Shown: piece after piece, positions 26,476-35,928 of the stretch
Layout: the number at the start of each line of letters is the position of its first letter
Numbering within the stretch: position 1 is the stretch's first letter
Assembly (NCBI GenBank): GCA_016926255.1
Contig: JAFGOY010000011.1
Location: forward strand, 1 to 64,000
Reading direction: 5' to 3'
DNA: 64,000 nucleotides
DNA from: Anaerolineae bacterium
GTDB lineage: Bacteria; Chloroflexota; Anaerolineae; Aggregatilineales; UBA3940
Made by a program: the position numbers and the translations under genes
The notes under the pieces: generated by a model
The model's database searches: none
The model's input: only the letters and a program-made list of their open reading frames with translations
Told to the model about the DNA's origin: nothing

Positions 26476-27801
26476 ATGGCGAAAGACAATAAACAAATCC
26501 CCGGCCCGCTGGCAAAAAAGATCATCAATCGGGACGCCGAAGTGATGTCCCCCTCCCTGCCGCGCTCCTACCCGCTGGTGATCGACCATGCGAGCGGAGT
26601 CGAAGTGTGGGACGTGGACGGCAATCGCTTTCTCGACTTCATGACCGGCATCGCCGTAACCGGCACTGGCCACAGCCACCCGAAAGTCGTCGAGGCGATC
26701 AAGGCGCAGGCGGATCGATTTTTGCATATCTGCCTCTCCGATTTCCGGTACGAGGTGGCGGTCGAACTGGCGGAAAAGCTCGACGAGATCGCCCCGTTCC
26801 CCGAAATCGGGCAGACGGTGCTGACGAACTCCGGTGCGGAAGCAGTCGAGGCAGCAATTAAGCTGGCCCGCCACGCGACCGGGAAGCAGACTTTTATCGC
26901 GTTTTATGGCGCGTTTCACGGGCGCACGCTGGGCGCGCTTTCGCTGACGGCCAGCAAGTATCGCCAGAAAGAAGGCTTTGCTCCCTTCATGCCGGGGGTG
27001 ATTCACGTGCCGTACCCCGATCCGTATCACCCGGTGCTGCATATCAGCGATGAACAGGATGTCGGGCTGGCGGTGGTCGACTATATTGAAAATGTTGTAC
27101 TGGCTAAGGAAGTCCCGCCCTGCGAAGTGGCGGCGATCTTTATCGAGCCGATTCTGGGCGAAGGTGGCTATATCGTCCCGCCCGACAGTTTCTTCCCGGC
27201 GCTGCGCGATCTGTGTGATCGGAACGAGATTCTGCTCGTCGCCGACGAGGTACAGAGCGGGATGGGACGCACCGGTAAGTGGTGGGCGATTGAACACTTC
27301 GGCGTGGAGCCGGACATCATCACCAGCGCGAAAGGCTTAGCCAGCGGGATGCCGCTTGGCGCGGTGATCGCCCGCAAGAGTGTGATGAAATGGCCGCCCG
27401 GAACTCACGGCAGCACGTTCGGCGGCAACCCGGTTTCCTGCGCGGCGGCGCTGGCGACCCTTCACCTGCTCGAAGACGGGCTGATCGACAATGCGGCGCG
27501 GATGGGCGACTATTTGATCGGCAAACTGCATGAAATGGCGCAGCGGTATCCATCGATTGGCGATATTCGCGGCAAGGGACTGATGATCGGCGTCGAACTC
27601 GTCAAAGATCGGGAGGCGCGCACCCCGGACAAGGAACTCCGCGACCAGATCATCGACGAGGCATTTGTCAATGGGCTGCTGCTGCTCGGCGCGGGCGACA
27701 GCGTGATCCGGTTGATGCCCCCGCTACTCGTCGACGAAAATGATGTCAATGAGGCGCTCGGAATCCTGGAGGCCGTGCTGGAAAAGCTGGAATCAGCCTA
27801 G
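26476..27801 (+). CDS. Class III pyridoxal-phosphate aminotransferase (GABA/ornithine type)
   Basis: The 441-residue product has the class III set: T-N-S-G-A-E-A at 117-123 (phosphate contact), F-H-G-R at 147-150, D-E-V-Q at 257-260 (Asp pairing the pyridine N) and the Schiff-base K286 in T-S-A-K-G-L-A-S-G-M-P-L-G. The N-terminal P-G-P-x-x-K and S-P-S-L-P-R-S-Y-P pattern is closer to 4-aminobutyrate or ornithine aminotransferases of archaeal and Chloroflexi type than to ArgD. The amino donor is not certain. AGGAG lies 8 nt before ATG. It ends before a strong terminator. Confidence 0.88.
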   Translation: MAKDNKQIPGPLAKKIINRDAEVMSPSLPRSYPLVIDHASGVEVWDVDGNRFLDFMTGIAVTGTGHSHPKVVEAIKAQADRFLHICLSDFRYEVAVELAEKLDEIAPFPEIGQTVLTNSGAEAVEAAIKLARHATGKQTFIAFYGAFHGRTLGALSLTASKYRQKEGFAPFMPGVIHVPYPDPYHPVLHISDEQDVGLAVVDYIENVVLAKEVPPCEVAAIFIEPILGEGGYIVPPDSFFPALRDLCDRNEILLVADEVQSGMGRTGKWWAIEHFGVEPDIITSAKGLASGMPLGAVIARKSVMKWPPGTHGSTFGGNPVSCAAALATLHLLEDGLIDNAARMGDYLIGKLHEMAQRYPSIGDIRGKGLMIGVELVKDREARTPDKELRDQIIDEAFVNGLLLLGAGDSVIRLMPPLLVDENDVNEALGILEAVLEKLESA

Positions 27802-27823
27802 CCGCCGCATCAGAAAAACATTA

Positions 27824-27858
27824 GAAGAGGCGCACCGATTGGTGCGTTTCTTCTTTTT
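27824..27858 (+). terminator. Terminator of the aminotransferase gene
   Basis: A 13-bp stem with two G-T pairs (27824-27836 with 27841-27853), a GATT loop and a TTTTTC tail. It separates the aminotransferase transcript from the histidine kinase gene and shows that the kinase start must lie downstream. Confidence 0.8.
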
Positions 27859-27874
27859 CAGGCTTATGGCGTGT

Positions 27875-27880
27875 TACAAT
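27875..27880 (+). promoter_or_regulatory. Candidate -10 element of the histidine kinase, near-leaderless
   Basis: TACAAT at 27875-27880 stands 6 nt before the ATG at 27887. If used, the transcript would start at or next to the start codon. The -35 box is poor. Confidence 0.35.
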
Positions 27881-27886
27881 CAGAGC

Positions 27887-29458
27887 ATGTTCTCGAATGT
27901 GATGATACGCCACCTGATCCGGCAGCGCGATCATATGCTGGAATTATCACGGACACTAACCTCGCAGCTCAGCCTGAACGAGGTTCTCCGGCGTATCCTG
28001 CGCTCGGCGACCGAACTGCTAGACGGGCACGCCGGGCTGATCGCGCTGGCCGACGACGGCAGTGATACTTTCACGGTGCGGGCCAGCTATGGGATTCAGC
28101 CCACCGTTCTGAAACACTTCGCACCGCTGCTGACCGATATTCCCCACAGCGACCCGGAGAGCTTCGTCATTCCAGAGCTGGATCGCAAGATGAAGCTGGT
28201 CGCACAGGCCGCCGGAATGGGGCTGCACCAGGTAATCGCCCTGCCGATGGTGATCGGCAGCGAGATGCTGGGCGTCGTCTATATTTTCCTGGCAAGCGGC
28301 GGTCAGTTCTCGCCGGACGGCGTGCAGCTTCTCCAGAGTTTCGCCGATCAAGCGGCTATCGCCGTACAAAATGCGCGGCTCTTCGAGCAGATTTCTACCG
28401 AAAAGATCCGGCTGGATGCAATCCTCAGGCACAGCGCCGACGGGATCATGATCCTCGACACCAGCCTGAAGATCGAAACGTTCAACCTTGCTCTAGCCCG
28501 GCTGACCGGCTGGACGGTCGAAGAAGCGATCGGGAAGCATCACGAAGAAGTGATTACGTGGGCCAGCCGTGAACCCGGTATGGATTTGATCCGGGCGGTG
28601 GCCGGAGGCTGGCCGCTCAGCGAGGCAAGCGTCCTCTACGTGGAAGGTGATCTGAGGCACGTCGGCGGTTCGACGCGCAGCGTGGGAGTTACCTATGCAC
28701 CGCTGTTCAGCGGCGACGGCCAGCTTCGCAATATCATCGCCAATGTACGCGACATCACCAAGTTCCGCGAGGCAGAAGAAGCCAAGACGACCTTCATCTC
28801 GATGATCTCGCACGAATTAAAGACCCCCGTTTCGGTGATCAAGGGTTATGCCAGCACACTCAACCGTGATGACGTGGAGTGGGATTCGGATACGGTGGAA
28901 CGCGGGCTGACGGTGATCGACGAAGAAACGGACAAACTGGCCGAGTTGATCGACAACCTGCTTGATGTCTCCCGTTTACAGATCGGGACCTTCAAACTGG
29001 ATTACGGCCCGGTATCGATCGACAATCTGGCCAAAAAGATCGTCGAAATGATGCGGACACAGACGGCGATCCATACGATTACAGTCGATTTCCCAGAGGA
29101 TTTCCCGATCATTCAGGGGGATAGCAGGCGGCTGGGACAGGTGCTTTCGAACCTGCTGAATAACGCGATCAAGTATTCGCCCGAAGGCGGCACGATCTCG
29201 GTCGGTGGGCGGGTGGTCGAAAATAGTGTCGAAGTTTATGTCTCAGATGAGGGGATTGGGCTGACCGAGGAAGAACAGGTGTTGATATTCGACCGCTTTT
29301 ACCGGGTCGACAATGCTTTGTCTCGAAAAACACAGGGAGCGGGGTTAGGATTGTATATTGTGCGCTCGATTGTCGAAAGTCACGGCGGGCGCATCTGGGT
29401 TGAAAGTCAACCCGGTGTGGGAACAACCTTCACGTTTTCGCTGCCCCTGTCACAGTGA
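27887..29458 (+). CDS. GAF-PAS sensor histidine kinase
   Basis: The 523-residue product contains a GAF domain (about 25-165), a PAS domain (about 180-300), the H-box S-H-E-L-K-T-P (His near 313), N-box N-L-L-N-N-A-I-K-Y-S, G1 D-E-G-I-G-L and G2 G-A-G-L-G-L-Y, i.e. a complete HisKA-HATPase core. No membrane segment is visible, so it senses a cytoplasmic signal. No response regulator is adjacent; the nearest one is at 53494. I choose ATG 27887, because an open frame reaching back to 27740 crosses the terminator and the preceding gene; ATG 27866 is possible. Confidence 0.9.
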   Translation: MFSNVMIRHLIRQRDHMLELSRTLTSQLSLNEVLRRILRSATELLDGHAGLIALADDGSDTFTVRASYGIQPTVLKHFAPLLTDIPHSDPESFVIPELDRKMKLVAQAAGMGLHQVIALPMVIGSEMLGVVYIFLASGGQFSPDGVQLLQSFADQAAIAVQNARLFEQISTEKIRLDAILRHSADGIMILDTSLKIETFNLALARLTGWTVEEAIGKHHEEVITWASREPGMDLIRAVAGGWPLSEASVLYVEGDLRHVGGSTRSVGVTYAPLFSGDGQLRNIIANVRDITKFREAEEAKTTFISMISHELKTPVSVIKGYASTLNRDDVEWDSDTVERGLTVIDEETDKLAELIDNLLDVSRLQIGTFKLDYGPVSIDNLAKKIVEMMRTQTAIHTITVDFPEDFPIIQGDSRRLGQVLSNLLNNAIKYSPEGGTISVGGRVVENSVEVYVSDEGIGLTEEEQVLIFDRFYRVDNALSRKTQGAGLGLYIVRSIVESHGGRIWVESQPGVGTTFTFSLPLSQ

Positions 29459-29531: not shown

Positions 29532-30875
29532 ATGGCAAGACCAATTCAGCAGACGATTACCTGCCCGCAGTGCGGTCAGCCCTTCCCTGCGATCATGGAA
29601 CAGCTTCTCGACGTGGGGATTGACCCGGGTGTGAAAGACCGGCTCCTGAGCGGACGGGTGAATGTGATCTCCTGCCCCCACTGTGGATATCAGGGCGCGG
29701 TATCGACGCCTATTATGTATCACGACCCTGACAAGCAAATGGCGATTATTCACGTACCGATGGAACTCAACCTCTCGACCAGCGACCGTGAGCGGATCAT
29801 AGGCGATATGACCAACGCGATTATGAAGTCGCTGCCGGAAGACGCGCCAAAGGGCTACCTGCTCCAACCGTCGATGGCGCTCACCATGCAGGGATTGGTC
29901 GAGCAAATCCTGGAAGCAGACGGGATCACCCGTGAAATGCTTGACGCCGAGCGAAAGAAGATCGAACTACTTGGCGAACTGGTCGAGGCAAAGTCGGATG
30001 AAGTCGACCGGCTCCTGGATGAAAACTTCGACCTGTTTGACCGCTCGTTCCTGGAAATGCTCTCTTATATGGCCCAATCCGCTTCGCAAAGCGGGGACAG
30101 CCGCACATCGCTGCGACTCCTGAACATCCGGCAGCGCCTGATGGAAACGACCGAGGCAGGCCAGGAGATGCTCGAAGAGCAGCAGGCATTGATCGAAGCC
30201 AGCGAGGAAATCCAGGAACTTGGCGAGGGAATCACCCGTGAACAGTACGTCGACCTGATCGCCAATGCAGCATATAACCCCAAAAAGGTGCAGGCATTGG
30301 CGGCGTTAGGACGAGTTTTTCTCGATTACACGACTTTCCAACTGCTCACCGAGCGGATTGAGGCAGCCGAATCGGATGAAGAAGCCGGGGCGCTTGCCGA
30401 CGCGCGCGAAACACTCCTGGCAATCTCCGCCGAATACGAAAAACACTCGCGGGCGATTATCGAGCAGGCGGTCACCACACTGAAATCGATCTTGCAGTCG
30501 TCCGACATCAAGGCAGCGATCCATGCCAACCTGAACAGAATCGACCAGACTTTTCTGTCTGTTCTTCAGGCCAACCTGGAAGAATCGCAGCGCAGCGGCA
30601 ACGTCGAAATATCGAGGCGATTGCAGGAGGTGCGCGACGAGGTGCTCCAGCTTCTCGAACAGGCCGCGCCACCGGAAGTCAGGCTGCTCAACCAGCTTCT
30701 GGCAGTCGAAACCGACGAGGAGGCAATCGCCGTGCTCGCCGAAAACAGCGGCGGAGTGACGGAGGAACTGCTCGCCATCATGGAAGACCTGGCGCAGCAG
30801 CTCCGGCAGGGGGGCAATGAAGAGTCGGCTAAGCGGCTGGATACAATTGTCGACCAGGCCCGAACGATGGTCTGA
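29532..30875 (+). CDS. CpXC domain protein with long helical region
   Basis: The 447-residue product begins with the CpXC domain: two Cys pairs, C11/C14 and C48/C51, in C-P-x-C-G contexts, followed by a beta-rich part to about residue 130. The remaining 300 residues are Glu/Leu/Ala-rich helices with coiled-coil character. CpXC proteins are frequent in Chloroflexota and Firmicutes; function unknown, though the Cys pairs suggest zinc binding. No membrane segment or signal peptide is seen. TACAAT at 29471-29476 may be its -10. It converges on the PBP gene across a shared terminator. Confidence 0.8.
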   Translation: MARPIQQTITCPQCGQPFPAIMEQLLDVGIDPGVKDRLLSGRVNVISCPHCGYQGAVSTPIMYHDPDKQMAIIHVPMELNLSTSDRERIIGDMTNAIMKSLPEDAPKGYLLQPSMALTMQGLVEQILEADGITREMLDAERKKIELLGELVEAKSDEVDRLLDENFDLFDRSFLEMLSYMAQSASQSGDSRTSLRLLNIRQRLMETTEAGQEMLEEQQALIEASEEIQELGEGITREQYVDLIANAAYNPKKVQALAALGRVFLDYTTFQLLTERIEAAESDEEAGALADARETLLAISAEYEKHSRAIIEQAVTTLKSILQSSDIKAAIHANLNRIDQTFLSVLQANLEESQRSGNVEISRRLQEVRDEVLQLLEQAAPPEVRLLNQLLAVETDEEAIAVLAENSGGVTEELLAIMEDLAQQLRQGGNEESAKRLDTIVDQARTMV

Positions 30876-30925: not shown

Positions 30926-32323
30926 TCAGGGGATGGCATTGAGGGCCGCCGCGAGTGCCCGCCCGCCGACTCGGGCGGCTTCGCTTGCGGTGGGGGTATC
31001 TTCCAGGAGAACCGCGACGGCAACTGATGCGTCGGGACTGTATGCCGAATAGCCGATGAACCAGGCGTTCAATTCGCCTTCTGGCCCGGCCATCGCCAGC
31101 CCGGTATGCCCCGCGACCGTAAACCTGGGAATGCTTGCCCTCTGTGAAGCACCTTCGTTGACCGAGCGGAGCATCAGCCCCTCAATAGTATCGGCGCTGG
31201 CCCGGCTGAGTGTCCCACGCGGAAGGCCGTCGGCGGGGACCAGCTGCCAGACTGCCCCGGGTTTCCGGGTTGCCAGCACAAGCTGCAAGGGCGGCATCTG
31301 CCCGTGATCAGCGAATGCGGCGGCGACCATAGCCATCTGCAAGGGGCTGACGGTCAGGCTGCTCTGCCCGATTCCGGTCAGGGTGAGTTCTTTCTCAATT
31401 GCAAAAGCATCCAAATCGGCGGATTCGGTCGGCAGGGCAAAGATAGGTGGTTCAGTCAGGCCAAAATCGACGATGGCCGTCTCCAACCGGTGAGTGCCAA
31501 GCTTTGCAGCAATCTGCCGGAATGGTTCGGGGCAGCCCTCAACGTAGGCATCCCCCAGCGTGTCGACATAACTGACATTGGCCGCACAGGGGAAAAAGCT
31601 GCCGTCTACGGTAGTGATGACTGTCCCTCGCCACTGCTCATCAGGACTGGCAATGCCGTTGTTCAGCGCCGCACCCAGGACCACGCTTTGCAGACTTTCG
31701 CCGGGTTGGTAAAGACCCTGCGTGGCCCGGTTCAGGAGCGCCGCGTCGGGGTCGGTCGAGAGCGTCTCCCAGTTCTCGTCAAGCGCCGCTGGGTCGAACG
31801 TCGGCTGGCTGGCAAGCGCCAGTATCTGCCCGTCCGGCACGTGGATAACGATGACTGCCCCGGTGTAACCTTCAAGGGCTTCATTTACTGCTTGCTGGAC
31901 CTCAATGTCGAGGCTGATCTGTACATCGGAGCCAACCTGCTGGCGGTGCAGTAAATCCTGTAGAACCGCCTCGGAATAAGTCACCTGGCCGCCGCCCCGT
32001 AGCTGATCGTCGTAGGCAGATTCGATCCCACCGACACCATAGCGCAGGCTGTAGTAGCCAACTACAGGTGCGGCTGATGGATAGTAGTAAACACGCTGGC
32101 TTGATCCATCCTCCGGATCGATGACGGTTTCAGCAAGCACCACCCCGTTGCGGTCGAGAATCTGGCCGCGCTGGATTTGCTGTTCGGCCAGCACCTGGCG
32201 GGGATTGTCGTCACGGGTGACCAGATCGACTCCCTGGACAAGTGTCCAGTAGCTCAGGGACAGCGCGATGATCACGAAGACCGCCAGCAGCCCGGCGGCC
32301 AGACGGCGCAGTGAAGAAGTCAT
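30926..32323 (-). CDS. Class B penicillin-binding protein, catalytic motifs degenerate
   Basis: The 465-residue product starts at ATG 32323, overlapping ftsW as ATGA. It has one membrane segment (about 6-28), the PBP N-domain with R-G-x-I-L-D-R-N-G-V-V-L-A (52-64), and a transpeptidase-like domain (about 150-460). Framework residues are kept (L-L-N-R-A-T-Q-G-L-Y-Q-P-G at 196-208; A-W-F-I-G-Y at 420-425), so the fold is certain. The active site is not: the S-x-x-K position reads E209-S-L-Q212, S-x-N reads G-C-P (263-265) and K-T-G reads H406-T-G. All three motifs are lost, so peptide cross-linking is unlikely. I infer a structural or activating partner for the SEDS glycan polymerase encoded immediately upstream. 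Position corresponds to pbpA of the actinobacterial rodA-pbpA operon. Confidence 0.85.
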   Translation of the reverse strand: MTSSLRRLAAGLLAVFVIIALSLSYWTLVQGVDLVTRDDNPRQVLAEQQIQRGQILDRNGVVLAETVIDPEDGSSQRVYYYPSAAPVVGYYSLRYGVGGIESAYDDQLRGGGQVTYSEAVLQDLLHRQQVGSDVQISLDIEVQQAVNEALEGYTGAVIVIHVPDGQILALASQPTFDPAALDENWETLSTDPDAALLNRATQGLYQPGESLQSVVLGAALNNGIASPDEQWRGTVITTVDGSFFPCAANVSYVDTLGDAYVEGCPEPFRQIAAKLGTHRLETAIVDFGLTEPPIFALPTESADLDAFAIEKELTLTGIGQSSLTVSPLQMAMVAAAFADHGQMPPLQLVLATRKPGAVWQLVPADGLPRGTLSRASADTIEGLMLRSVNEGASQRASIPRFTVAGHTGLAMAGPEGELNAWFIGYSAYSPDASVAVAVLLEDTPTASEAARVGGRALAAALNAIP

Positions 32324-33708
32324 GCGCTTAGCTCCTGGGTCGTATCGACGGTTGGCATTGGCTGTGTTTTGCGCCGCAGCCTGACCCGTGTTTCGAGGTC
32401 GGAGATGCGCAGCAGCAGCCCGGCCATGATGAAGCTGGACAGCAGCGAACTCCCCCCATAGCTGACGAAGGGAACTGTCACGCCGGTGAGAGGGATCAGC
32501 TTGAGGACGCCGCCCATGATCAGGATCGACTGGATTCCCAGTGACACCCCGATCCCGGTTGCAAGCAGCGCCCGGAAGGGATGGTCGGCGGCGCGGGCGG
32601 CGATTCGCAGCGCCCGGATAACCAGAATCGCAAGGCAGGCAGTCACGCCGACAGCCCCCAGCAGCCCCCATTCTTCGGCGATGGCGGCGAAAACGAAGTC
32701 GGAGTGGACGACCGGGATAAACCCCGGGTTTCCAAGGCCGACGCCCTGCCCGAAAATTCCGCCGGAGGCAACGGCGATCAGCGATTGGACGATCTGAAAG
32801 GCCCGGTCACCGGCTTCTGGCCAGGGATTCCACCAGGCATCGACGCGCAGGCGGACAACATCGAACATCGCGTATCCGGCTAATCCGGCGATCAGGAGCA
32901 TGATCAACCCGACCCCAAGATAGCCCGGCTGCCCGGTCGACACGTAAAGCATCGCCAGGAAAATGAGGAAAAACAGCGACGCCGCGCCCAGATCGCGCTG
33001 CCAGACGAGCAGAATCATGCAGAATCCCCACATCAACAGCATCGGGCCGGTGTAGGCCGGGGCAGGCAGGTTCCAGCGCCCGATCTTGACCGGGGTGGTG
33101 ACGATGATCTCGCTTTTGTCGGCGAGATAGCTTGCCAGGAAGACAACCAGCAGCAGCTTAAGGATTTCGGAGGGCTGGAAATAGAAAATCCCAAAGCCGA
33201 GCCACAGGCGCGGAGCGTAGATGTCACCGGAGGGGTTAACGCCCCAGAAAAGCGTGGCGGCCAGAATCAGCAGCCCCAACAGCAACCATGTATAGCGAAA
33301 GCGGCGCAGGATACGCAGACTTGGCGGGAGGAATGCCATCAGCAGCCCCGCCGCTGACGAGATCACAAGCCAGATCATCTGGCGGAGGGCGAACGGTGGT
33401 GCGAGGCGGGCGACGAGCGTCAGGCCCCAGCCGGACAGCAGTCCGATCACGGGCAGGATGACCGGATCGCGCCGGGGAAGCAACCGGTTGAGCATCACGT
33501 GGAGGGCGATCACACACGCGGCCCATACGATCACCGGCCAGGAGGCATACCAGGGCTGTTCCAGGGCGAACTGCAATGCCACGCGGTTCAAAATGACAAA
33601 AATCGCCGCGAAGACAATCAAAACGCGCTCCCGGCGGATGCCGGGGGTAGATGGAACCGTTTCACCGATAGACATCAGTGTATATAGTCCCGGTGCAGCC
33701 TCAGTCAA
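32320..33708 (-). CDS. ftsW: SEDS family glycan polymerase (FtsW/RodA type)
   Basis: The 462-residue product has about 12 membrane segments and the SEDS hallmark P-L-T-G-V-T-V-P-F-V-S-Y-G-G-S-S in its C-terminal part (about 420-435), with the extended N-terminus of actinobacterial-type RodA/FtsW. SEDS proteins polymerise lipid II into glycan and need a class B PBP partner. Here that partner is encoded next door with a 4-bp overlap. The start overlaps the end of mtnP by 8 bp. FtsW versus RodA cannot be separated by sequence alone; context with FHA proteins resembles RodA of Actinobacteria. Confidence 0.93.
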   Translation of the reverse strand: MTEAAPGLYTLMSIGETVPSTPGIRRERVLIVFAAIFVILNRVALQFALEQPWYASWPVIVWAACVIALHVMLNRLLPRRDPVILPVIGLLSGWGLTLVARLAPPFALRQMIWLVISSAAGLLMAFLPPSLRILRRFRYTWLLLGLLILAATLFWGVNPSGDIYAPRLWLGFGIFYFQPSEILKLLLVVFLASYLADKSEIIVTTPVKIGRWNLPAPAYTGPMLLMWGFCMILLVWQRDLGAASLFFLIFLAMLYVSTGQPGYLGVGLIMLLIAGLAGYAMFDVVRLRVDAWWNPWPEAGDRAFQIVQSLIAVASGGIFGQGVGLGNPGFIPVVHSDFVFAAIAEEWGLLGAVGVTACLAILVIRALRIAARAADHPFRALLATGIGVSLGIQSILIMGGVLKLIPLTGVTVPFVSYGGSSLLSSFIMAGLLLRISDLETRVRLRRKTQPMPTVDTTQELSA

Positions 33709-34573
33709 AGTGCCTGCCGATCAGCGGACGTAAGCGCTCCATCACTTCGGGTGGAATTTTGCGCGGGTCGGTGATCGTCGCCCCGGCCAGTGCATTCTTG
33801 CACTCGCAGGTGCGCGCTGCTTTGGAGAGCATGACCATCAGTTCTGCGAGCGCATTTTGCGCGATCTCCAGGTTCTTGTTGAAAGTCCTGACCACCATGT
33901 CGACCGTCACTGCTTCCTCGCTCTCGTGCCAGACATCATAATCGGTGACGTGGGCCATCACCGCGTAGCACATTTCGGCTTCGCGGGCGAGGAACGCTTC
34001 CGGCGAGGTAGTCATCCCGATGATCGACATGCCCCAGGAGCGGTAGACATTGCTTTCTGCCTTAGTCGAGAAGCGCGGGCCTTCGATGGTGATGAACGCG
34101 CCGCCTTCCTTGACCTTTCCGCCCACCTTTTTGACAGCTTCGCTCACCATACCGCCCGTCCTAGTGCAGACGGGATCGGCGGTACCGACGTGAACGGCAA
34201 ATCCCTCACCGAAAAAGGAGGATTTGCGTCCTTTAGTATTGTCGTAAAGCTGGTCAGGAATGACGATATGGCCGGGTTCGTAGTCTTCACGCAGGGAGCC
34301 GCAGGCGCTAACCGCGATGCAGGTTTCGACGCCGAGCATTTTCAGCGCGAAGATGTTTGCCCGGTAGGGCACCTCGCCTGGCAGGTGGATATGACCGCGC
34401 CCGTGACGGGGAATAAACGCGACACGGACACCGTTGAGTGTCCCAATGATGATCGAATCGGAAGGGGAACCAAACGGCGTCTCGATATCGCGCTCTTCGA
34501 TATCGGTCAGTTCGGGCATCCGGTACAGCCCTGATCCCCCTATCACACCAATCCGAACCGGGGTTTCTGCCAT
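33701..34573 (-). CDS. mtnP: S-methyl-5'-thioadenosine phosphorylase
   Basis: The 290-residue product matches MTA phosphorylase: G-V-I-G-G-S-G-L-Y at 8-16, P-R-H-G-R-G-H-x-H near 56-64 (phosphate site), A-C-G-S-L-R near 95, E-G-P-R-F-S-T near 165 and M-T-T-S-P-E-A near 190, and T-D-Y-D-V-W near 220. It splits methylthioadenosine into adenine and methylthioribose-1-phosphate in methionine salvage. It lies oddly inside a cell-wall cluster, between the FHA genes and ftsW, whose start codon overlaps its end. An AAGGAGAA site precedes ATG 34573. Confidence 0.94.
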   Translation of the reverse strand: MAETPVRIGVIGGSGLYRMPELTDIEERDIETPFGSPSDSIIIGTLNGVRVAFIPRHGRGHIHLPGEVPYRANIFALKMLGVETCIAVSACGSLREDYEPGHIVIPDQLYDNTKGRKSSFFGEGFAVHVGTADPVCTRTGGMVSEAVKKVGGKVKEGGAFITIEGPRFSTKAESNVYRSWGMSIIGMTTSPEAFLAREAEMCYAVMAHVTDYDVWHESEEAVTVDMVVRTFNKNLEIAQNALAELMVMLSKAARTCECKNALAGATITDPRKIPPEVMERLRPLIGRHFD

Positions 34574-34608: not shown

Positions 34609-35049
34609 CTATCCGCACTCAAACATCAGCCTGACCCGCCCGATCTCGATCACGTCACCTGCTGAAATGACGACCCCATTGACGACATCGACTCCATTCA
34701 GGCGTGTCCCGTTGCGGCTGTTCTGGTCTTCGAGCCACCACTGGCCGTTCTTGATACTGATGATTGCATGACGGTTACTGGCGAAGCTGTCGGGGAGGAT
34801 GATCGTGTTGACCGGCCCCCGCCCCAGCAGAGTTTCCTTCTCGAGGGGAAACTGCATACCGGCTTTGAGTGGAACGGCGCCGTCACATTCAACGACGATC
34901 AACCGGGCGGCGATTTTCGCATCGGGCTGCATCTGCTGTCCGGCCAGTCGGATATCCTGCCAACCGTACCATAACAACAGGCCCAAAAAGAGATACAGTG
35001 CCACAATAATGGCCATGCGAAGTATTAGTAAAAAGACATCAAGAGACAT
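34609..35049 (-). CDS. FHA domain membrane protein (FhaB-like)
   Basis: The 146-residue product has an N-terminal membrane segment (about 8-29) and a cytoplasmic FHA domain (about 55-145) with L-L-G-R-G, S-x-x-H replaced by S-N-R-H, and the N-S-R-N-G-T-x-L-N-G strand. FHA domains bind phosphothreonine on Ser/Thr kinase substrates. The layout equals FhaB/FipA of Actinobacteria. It overlaps the upstream FHA gene by 11 bp. A Ser/Thr kinase occurs in this window at 45884-47746 but not in this cluster. Confidence 0.88.
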   Translation of the reverse strand: MSLDVFLLILRMAIIVALYLFLGLLLWYGWQDIRLAGQQMQPDAKIAARLIVVECDGAVPLKAGMQFPLEKETLLGRGPVNTIILPDSFASNRHAIISIKNGQWWLEDQNSRNGTRLNGVDVVNGVVISAGDVIEIGRVRLMFECG

Positions 35050-35851
35050 GATTTCCCGTCTGCTGCTCGGTTTGACCGGGTGCCGACTGCGTTTTTTCCA
35101 GCGTTTCGGCCCCGGGATCGTCGTCGGCCACGTCTTCCTCGACGTAGATCAGAGAGTGGTTTGCCAGCGTGATGACATCGCCGGGCTGCAGGATATGTTC
35201 CTGGACGGGGTTGGCATTGACCAGTGTGCCCTGTTTGCTGGTCAGATCGAAGAGGACGTAGCGACCGAAACGCAGACGAATCTGGATATGATGGCGGGAG
35301 ATTTCCGGCTCGTCGAGGATTAGATGGTTGTCACGCTGCCGCCCAATATTGAGCACCGGCTCGGCCAGTGGGATATGGCGCTCTCCGTCGACGATCAGCG
35401 CCGCCTTCGGTGGTTCCGGACCGGCCTGATTTTCCTGTATTTTCAGCGGCATCGCCTGAGTAGTCTCGACTTTTGGCCTGGTGTGCTGGGCGCTGACCGT
35501 GATGTCATGCGGCTCGACCGTCAGATCGGCCAGCAGCCGGATTCTGGGCCGGGAGATCAACTTCAGATCGGCTGAACGGGCCATTTTGACCAGTTCATCA
35601 GCCAGTTGATCGACCAAGTCGGCACCGCTGGCTAAGATTTCTTCGTGATCCTGCGGGTTCAGGCGCACGATGTACACGTCCGGGGCGAGCAGATCGCCGG
35701 TTTCAGTCTCCTGCGAGCGATCTTCCATGGCATGGGCCAGCCGGGTCAGTACATCACGCGGGTGAAGTCGGTCGGCGAACAGCCGAGCGAACCCCCCTTC
35801 GACGAGGCGCTGTATCTGGTCTTCAAGACGGGAGAAGCGTTCATTTACCAT
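35039..35851 (-). CDS. FHA domain protein with DUF3662 N-domain (FhaA-like)
   Basis: The 270-residue product has an N-terminal DUF3662 domain (about 1-110; pattern R-F-S-R-L-E-D-x-I-x-x-L-V-E-G, then P-R-D-V-L-T-R-L) and a C-terminal FHA domain (about 160-245) with I-G-R-Q-R-D-N, S-R-H-H and T-S-K-Q-G-T-L-V-N. The same order is found in mycobacterial FhaA, which regulates peptidoglycan synthesis through MviN and RodA/PbpA. I chose ATG 35851 because TATAAT on this strand (35862-35867) lies just upstream; ATG 35881 would lie before that element. First gene of the cell-wall cluster. Confidence 0.88.
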   Translation of the reverse strand: MVNERFSRLEDQIQRLVEGGFARLFADRLHPRDVLTRLAHAMEDRSQETETGDLLAPDVYIVRLNPQDHEEILASGADLVDQLADELVKMARSADLKLISRPRIRLLADLTVEPHDITVSAQHTRPKVETTQAMPLKIQENQAGPEPPKAALIVDGERHIPLAEPVLNIGRQRDNHLILDEPEISRHHIQIRLRFGRYVLFDLTSKQGTLVNANPVQEHILQPGDVITLANHSLIYVEEDVADDDPGAETLEKTQSAPGQTEQQTGNHVS

Positions 35852-35928
35852 ATGTCGGGCATTATAGCCCACGCCCTCCAAAAGAACCAGAGTCGTCGTT
35901 TGTGTGTGGGTGATTCGACAACAAAACG

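Follow-up and report, generated by a model that had tools for sequence, protein, structure and literature searches.

The class B penicillin-binding protein (PBP) encoded in the middle of the window, i.e., the whole 64,000-nucleotide stretch of Chloroflexota DNA analyzed here, contains none of the three motifs of a functional serine D,D-transpeptidase, SxxK, SxN, and KTG. It is probably (we put the probability at roughly 0.72) a pseudo-transpeptidase that is kept to anchor and activate the third SEDS polymerase of its genome, with cross-linking supplied by other enzymes; the binding of the SEDS protein, its activation, and its substrate are what we infer within this reading.

Gene order of the locus

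The genes for an FhaA-like protein, an FhaB-like protein, a nucleoside phosphorylase, the SEDS protein, and the PBP are located in that order and in tight packing on the minus strand (Table 1). The original prediction described a SEDS-PBP pair on the same coding strand with an intact frame and a 4-bp overlap, and the two open reading frames agree, the overlap being ATGA; the three upstream genes were omitted from it.

Table 1. Features of the SEDS-PBP locus in the window.
Feature	Position	Strand	Basis
Class B PBP, PbpA type (pseudo-PBP)	30926..32323	-	465 aa from ATG; ORF and translation; PF00905 and PF21922; AF2 model (pLDDT 91.3); fold match to MtbPbpA
Former KTG site, H406-T-G	31100..31108	-	Codons CAT ACC GGG
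Former SxN site, G263-C264-P265	31529..31537	-	Codons GGC TGC CCC; C264 and P265 near-fixed in full-length dead homologues
C246, conserved with C264 in dead homologues, possible disulphide	31586..31588	-	Both present in 67/71 full-length dead rows
Former SxxK site, E209-S-L-Q212	31688..31699	-	Codons GAA and CAA; alignment to solved PBPs
PbpA dimerisation/pedestal domain, residues 52-134	31922..32170	-	PF21922 match 52-134
TM helix of PBP, residues 2-29	32237..32320	-	Helix 2-29 in AF2 model; hydrophobic sequence
SEDS glycosyltransferase, third of genome	32320..33708	-	PF01098 (1.2e-72); below FtsW and RodA equivalog cut-offs
SEDS catalytic Asp D337 (HSDF), equivalent of TtRodA D255	32698..32700	-	Alignment with 6bar and the D255A mutant 6bas
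Nucleoside phosphorylase (PNP/MTAP type), conserved neighbour	33701..34573	-	PF01048
FhaB-like FHA protein	34609..35049	-	PF00498
FhaA-like protein	35039..35881	-	PF12401 FhaA_N and PF00498

The order fhaA, fhaB, SEDS, and pbpA on one strand is shared with the actinobacterial fhaA-fhaB-pstP-rodA-pbpA-pknA-pknB locus, a region that holds fhaA, fhaB, pstP, rodA, pbpA, and kinase genes (PMC6554272). However, the window carries the nucleoside phosphorylase gene between fhaB and SEDS instead of pstP, has no adjoining kinase genes pknA/pknB, and has a CpXC gene on the other strand after pbpA. This CpXC-domain gene (29532-30875, plus strand) and a GAF-PAS histidine kinase gene (27740-29458, plus strand) converge on the PBP gene. 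A PNP/MTAP-type nucleoside phosphorylase gene likewise separates the FHA genes from SEDS at most loci of the class (L042, L053, L055, L058, L062, L073, and others). Compared with RodA-PbpA of Mycobacterium tuberculosis (3lo7/3un7), the PbpA domain order and fold are alike and the SEDS gene is directly upstream in the window, but the catalytic residues of the PBP are gone.

Loss of the catalytic motifs in a complete fold

Both domain cut-offs and the fold assign the window protein to the PbpA-type class B PBPs, with 114.4 bits for PF00905 (cut-off 22.1) and 48.8 bits for PF21922 (cut-off 27). The AF2 model (pLDDT 91.3) forms a complete PBP fold and superposes on M. tuberculosis PbpA (3lo7) with a Z score of 46.6 and an rmsd of 2.1 Å over 392 aligned residues, consistent with the earlier view that the fold-defining stretches are kept. 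The nearest solved relatives are the PbpA of M. tuberculosis and its actinobacterial kin.

The substitutions originally proposed, ESLQ for SxxK, GCP for SxN, and HTG for KTG, are confirmed by codons and alignment. HMMER places PGESLQS against the SxxK stretch of 4mnr and 4n1x, and direct reading of the codons gives GAA for E209 (31697-31699) and CAA for Q212 (31688-31690). Positions 31690-31715 had been taken to confirm both residues; E209 does lie within them, whereas the Q212 codon falls partly beyond that range. An intact SxxK elsewhere in the domain is excluded because the whole 465-aa protein contains no S-x-x-K, its only lysines being K274, K311, and K354. Some active serine DD-peptidases use HTG. 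HTG alone is therefore weak evidence of inactivity, and it is the lost Ser and Lys that carry the case. A sequencing error or frame slip was also considered and is ruled out by the presence of the same loss in every homologue fetched from the window's order.

Distribution and origin of the loss

Among 155 distinct homologues, SxxK is kept in 62 and absent from 93 (hereafter dead copies), totals that are not a fair census because one locus scan, of named genomes, used a pattern ending in YQ and favoured dead copies. The 62 SxxK-bearing homologues carry SxN or SxD together with KTG or KSG. In the other 93, SxN is also gone and KTG is left in only one, L034; no half-way case at the SxxK site was found among the 155. 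Surveying other Chloroflexota for the same substitutions, a check suggested with the original prediction, returned a clade-wide loss that takes in each homologue fetched from the window's order, the named relatives including Aggregatilineales, Thermoflexales, Promineifilum, Ardenticatenia, and Roseilinea MAGs. Outside the class, the motifs are intact in four homologues from Firmicutes and, L202 aside, in all those fetched from other Chloroflexota classes. To judge from these sequences, loss of SxxK is a clade-wide trait of a large group of uncultured Chloroflexota, and the original prediction, which dealt with one protein, understates it.

With the motif columns left out of the alignment, the PBP tree groups 90 dead rows into a single clade (SH-aLRT 96), which adjoins an intact genus with one fresh loss (L013/L034), and the SEDS tree concurs for 81 rows (support 83). 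A single origin of all losses is ruled out, as L034 represents a separate recent loss beside the intact L013 of the same genus. The trees point to one old loss and at least one further independent loss of SxxK. In L034 and L059 (G006), a GELEELG-type repeat replaces the SxxK-SxN region that is fully intact in the sister species (L013, G075), and KTG is kept. L202 (G193), from outside the class, has a SEDS protein fused to a dead PBP and falls inside the dead clade on the PBP tree but outside it on the SEDS tree; one clade is not rejected by the AU test (p 0.477).

Selection on the dead domain

For 12 close pairs of full-length dead copies, dN/dS was 0.09-0.23 in the transpeptidase domain and 0.06-0.22 in the TM-pedestal part. 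The transpeptidase domain is usually more constrained than the TM-pedestal part in intact pairs, whereas both are alike in dead pairs: the dead domain is relaxed yet under purifying selection. The residue at the former Ser position varies among dead copies (E, A, G, T, L, S, and others), and most full-length dead copies have Pro at the Asn position of SxN. The C246/C264 pair is found in 67 of 71 full-length dead copies vs. 15 of 62 intact ones.

Fusion, truncation, and joint absence

Of the dead PBPs with a visible SEDS partner, 50 of 84 are fused to it in one open frame and 32 adjoin it, compared with a single fusion among 51 intact PBPs. Only one of the 51 fusions seen has a PBP half that is neither dead nor truncated, and parsimony places eight of nine fusion changes within the dead clade. 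In a fold comparison of a modelled natural fusion, the chains listed were all from PBPs. A SEDS protein fused to an intact PBP was observed in L200 (G314), outside the class. In two related genomes (L047 and L049), the dead PBP is located 0.8-0.95 kb from SEDS and does not adjoin it.

The stretch from SxxK to SxN is deleted in 22 homologues, in which the TM helix, the pedestal, and the first transpeptidase strands remain. In G179 (L293:1-1330), a 95% complete draft, the ORF after SEDS is 139 aa long and can be recognised as PBP only over its first ~55-60 residues, which comprise the TM helix and RQDNPR; it is a near TM-only PBP remnant. CpXC and histidine kinase genes follow downstream, as in the window. 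A PBP homologue of the window's order (L061:5527-6992, G146) is split in two frames after the pedestal domain, either because of a true frameshift or through misassembly. In three drafts of the window's order (G150, G157, and G180; 87-94% complete), the two other SEDS were detected but not this PBP or the third SEDS.

A natural SEDS-PBP fusion is already known from the Rhodococcus RHA1 genome, as cited in PMC10449877. It and the engineered RodA-PBP2 fusion (PMC10449877) share with those described here a single polypeptide with SEDS first and PBP second. However, the engineered fusion binds bocillin (PMC10449877), whereas nearly all fusions of the present set have a dead or truncated PBP. No description of natural dead class B PBPs or dead SEDS-PBP fusions was found in the literature searched, a weak negative as subscription papers were poorly covered.

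The SEDS protein and possible cross-linking enzymes

The SEDS protein of the window matches PF01098 with 245.3 bits and scores below the NCBIfam equivalog cut-offs of both FtsW (TIGR02614, 244 against 337.5) and RodA (TIGR02210, 187.9 against 336.7). As one of three SEDS in its genome and below both cut-offs, it was named too specifically when it was called ftsW; three SEDS per genome were found in all six genomes checked. All 134 SEDS have the Asp that corresponds to TtRodA D255, including all 83 beside dead PBPs, and E. coli FtsW cannot function without D297, which has the same H-T-D context (PMC8765783). A dead SEDS, suspected from an NPWPEAGD stretch, is ruled out by the 6bas alignment, which puts the Asp in the intact HSDF. 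The SEDS partner thus looks alive. Among the 20 SEDS joined to truncated PBPs (e.g., L075, L078, and L117), 15 have Arg in place of the conserved Lys of QPSE..K, vs. three of 114 elsewhere.

Three class B and four class A PBPs are encoded elsewhere in the window genome, all seven with SxxK and KTG, along with six YkuD proteins. A pattern check of five further genomes of the class confirmed most of their other PBPs as intact, though not L263 and L265.

Proposed role and alternatives

We propose that the PbpA-type PBP of the Fha-SEDS-PbpA locus lost its acylating Ser and general-base Lys in an ancestor within this Chloroflexota class and is retained as the membrane-anchor and pedestal subunit for a SEDS glycan polymerase that itself has an intact active site. 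As in RodA-PBP2 and FtsW-FtsI, the TM helix and pedestal of the PBP would bind SEDS and control how active it is. The product would be peptidoglycan, and its strands would be cross-linked in trans by L,D-transpeptidases or by the intact class A/B PBPs that the genome encodes at other loci. The window PBP itself would not be acylated by beta-lactams. The tree suggests that the steps ran from an intact pair through a dead and then a fused pair to core-deleted and finally near TM-only forms.

Such a role has precedents in known systems. In RodA-PBP2 and FtsW-FtsI, the class B PBP touches SEDS through its TM helix and the pedestal-ECL4 contact, activating it, and the authors use this to account for how FtsI can be essential even though the cell can do without its transpeptidase activity (PMC8078798). 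The PBP2 TM helix by itself, when fused to RodA, is enough to stimulate it (PMC10449877). In Bacillus subtilis, division proceeds with PBP2B S309A when PBP3 provides the transpeptidation (PMC5656894), and Clostridioides difficile SpoVD is partly independent of catalysis (PMC12713402). These engineered dead class B PBPs (PBP2B S309A and SpoVD S311A) have no transpeptidase activity and still serve a SEDS-linked role, as is proposed for the proteins described here; however, they are laboratory point mutants, whereas the loss in Chloroflexota is natural, ancient, and clade-wide and was followed by fusion and truncation. The pseudo-transpeptidase reading of the original prediction fits the conservation across ~90 genomes, the intact SEDS site, the purifying selection, the repeated fusion, and the repeated loss of the catalytic lobe with TM helix and pedestal kept. 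Its further suggestion of an obligate partner or activator may also hold, being compatible with the joint absence in three genomes of the same order and with the published activation of SEDS by class B PBPs. The natural series of dead, fused, core-deleted, and near TM-only forms is the pattern expected if an anchor or activator role is selected.

A pure anchor, however, does not require a whole transpeptidase fold, and most dead copies keep one under selection, which leaves room for a sensor role, in which the dead domain binds a stem peptide, a nascent strand, or some other ligand in the envelope, does not turn it over, and gates SEDS, perhaps together with the FHA proteins encoded in the same locus. 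We regard this as unlikely, since the residue at the former Ser position varies freely and the cleft region is wholly deleted in many relatives. Slightly less probable still is a SEDS protein that polymerises or moves a substrate other than Lipid II, making a cross-linker useless. Its standing as a third SEDS, below the FtsW and RodA cut-offs and beside two others in every genome checked, would agree with such a substrate, but its conserved residues match RodA and FtsW, and closely related loci pair the same SEDS with intact transpeptidases.

Neutral decay of a redundant PBP gene is strongly disfavoured. Heavy truncation or absence in some lineages and the frameshift-split copy in the same order are what a gene being lost might leave behind, but dN/dS is well below 1 in the dead domain, the frames are open across ~90 genomes with an ancient single origin of the dead clade, and in-frame fusion to SEDS has occurred repeatedly. 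The least probable explanation, one to which we give very little credence, is new chemistry with another nucleophile, e.g., C264, in place of Ser: although C246 and C264 are nearly fixed together in full-length dead copies, their presence in 15 of 62 intact enzymes suggests a disulphide, and both are absent from 22 of 22 truncated relatives.

Implications

Activation of SEDS by class B PBPs apart from transpeptidation has so far been argued mainly from engineered mutants and structures, and evolution appears to have run that experiment across ~90 genomes. A natural SEDS-class B PBP pair with a pseudoenzyme as its PBP half is what the analysis supports in outline, the function of that half being putative. 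A broader picture, which we hold tentatively and at somewhat less than even odds, is that of a third SEDS machine uncoupled from cross-linking, a polymerase that beta-lactams could not acylate and in which the PBP would serve as an allosteric anchor only, on a path from a two-gene synthase through a one-polypeptide polymerase to a near TM-only remnant. The intact pair, dead pair, dead fusion, core-deleted fusion, and near TM-only remnant provide ready constructs for finding how little of a class B PBP suffices for activation. The pseudo-transpeptidase reading predicts that these bacteria would possess a peptidoglycan synthase complex beyond the reach of beta-lactam acylation.
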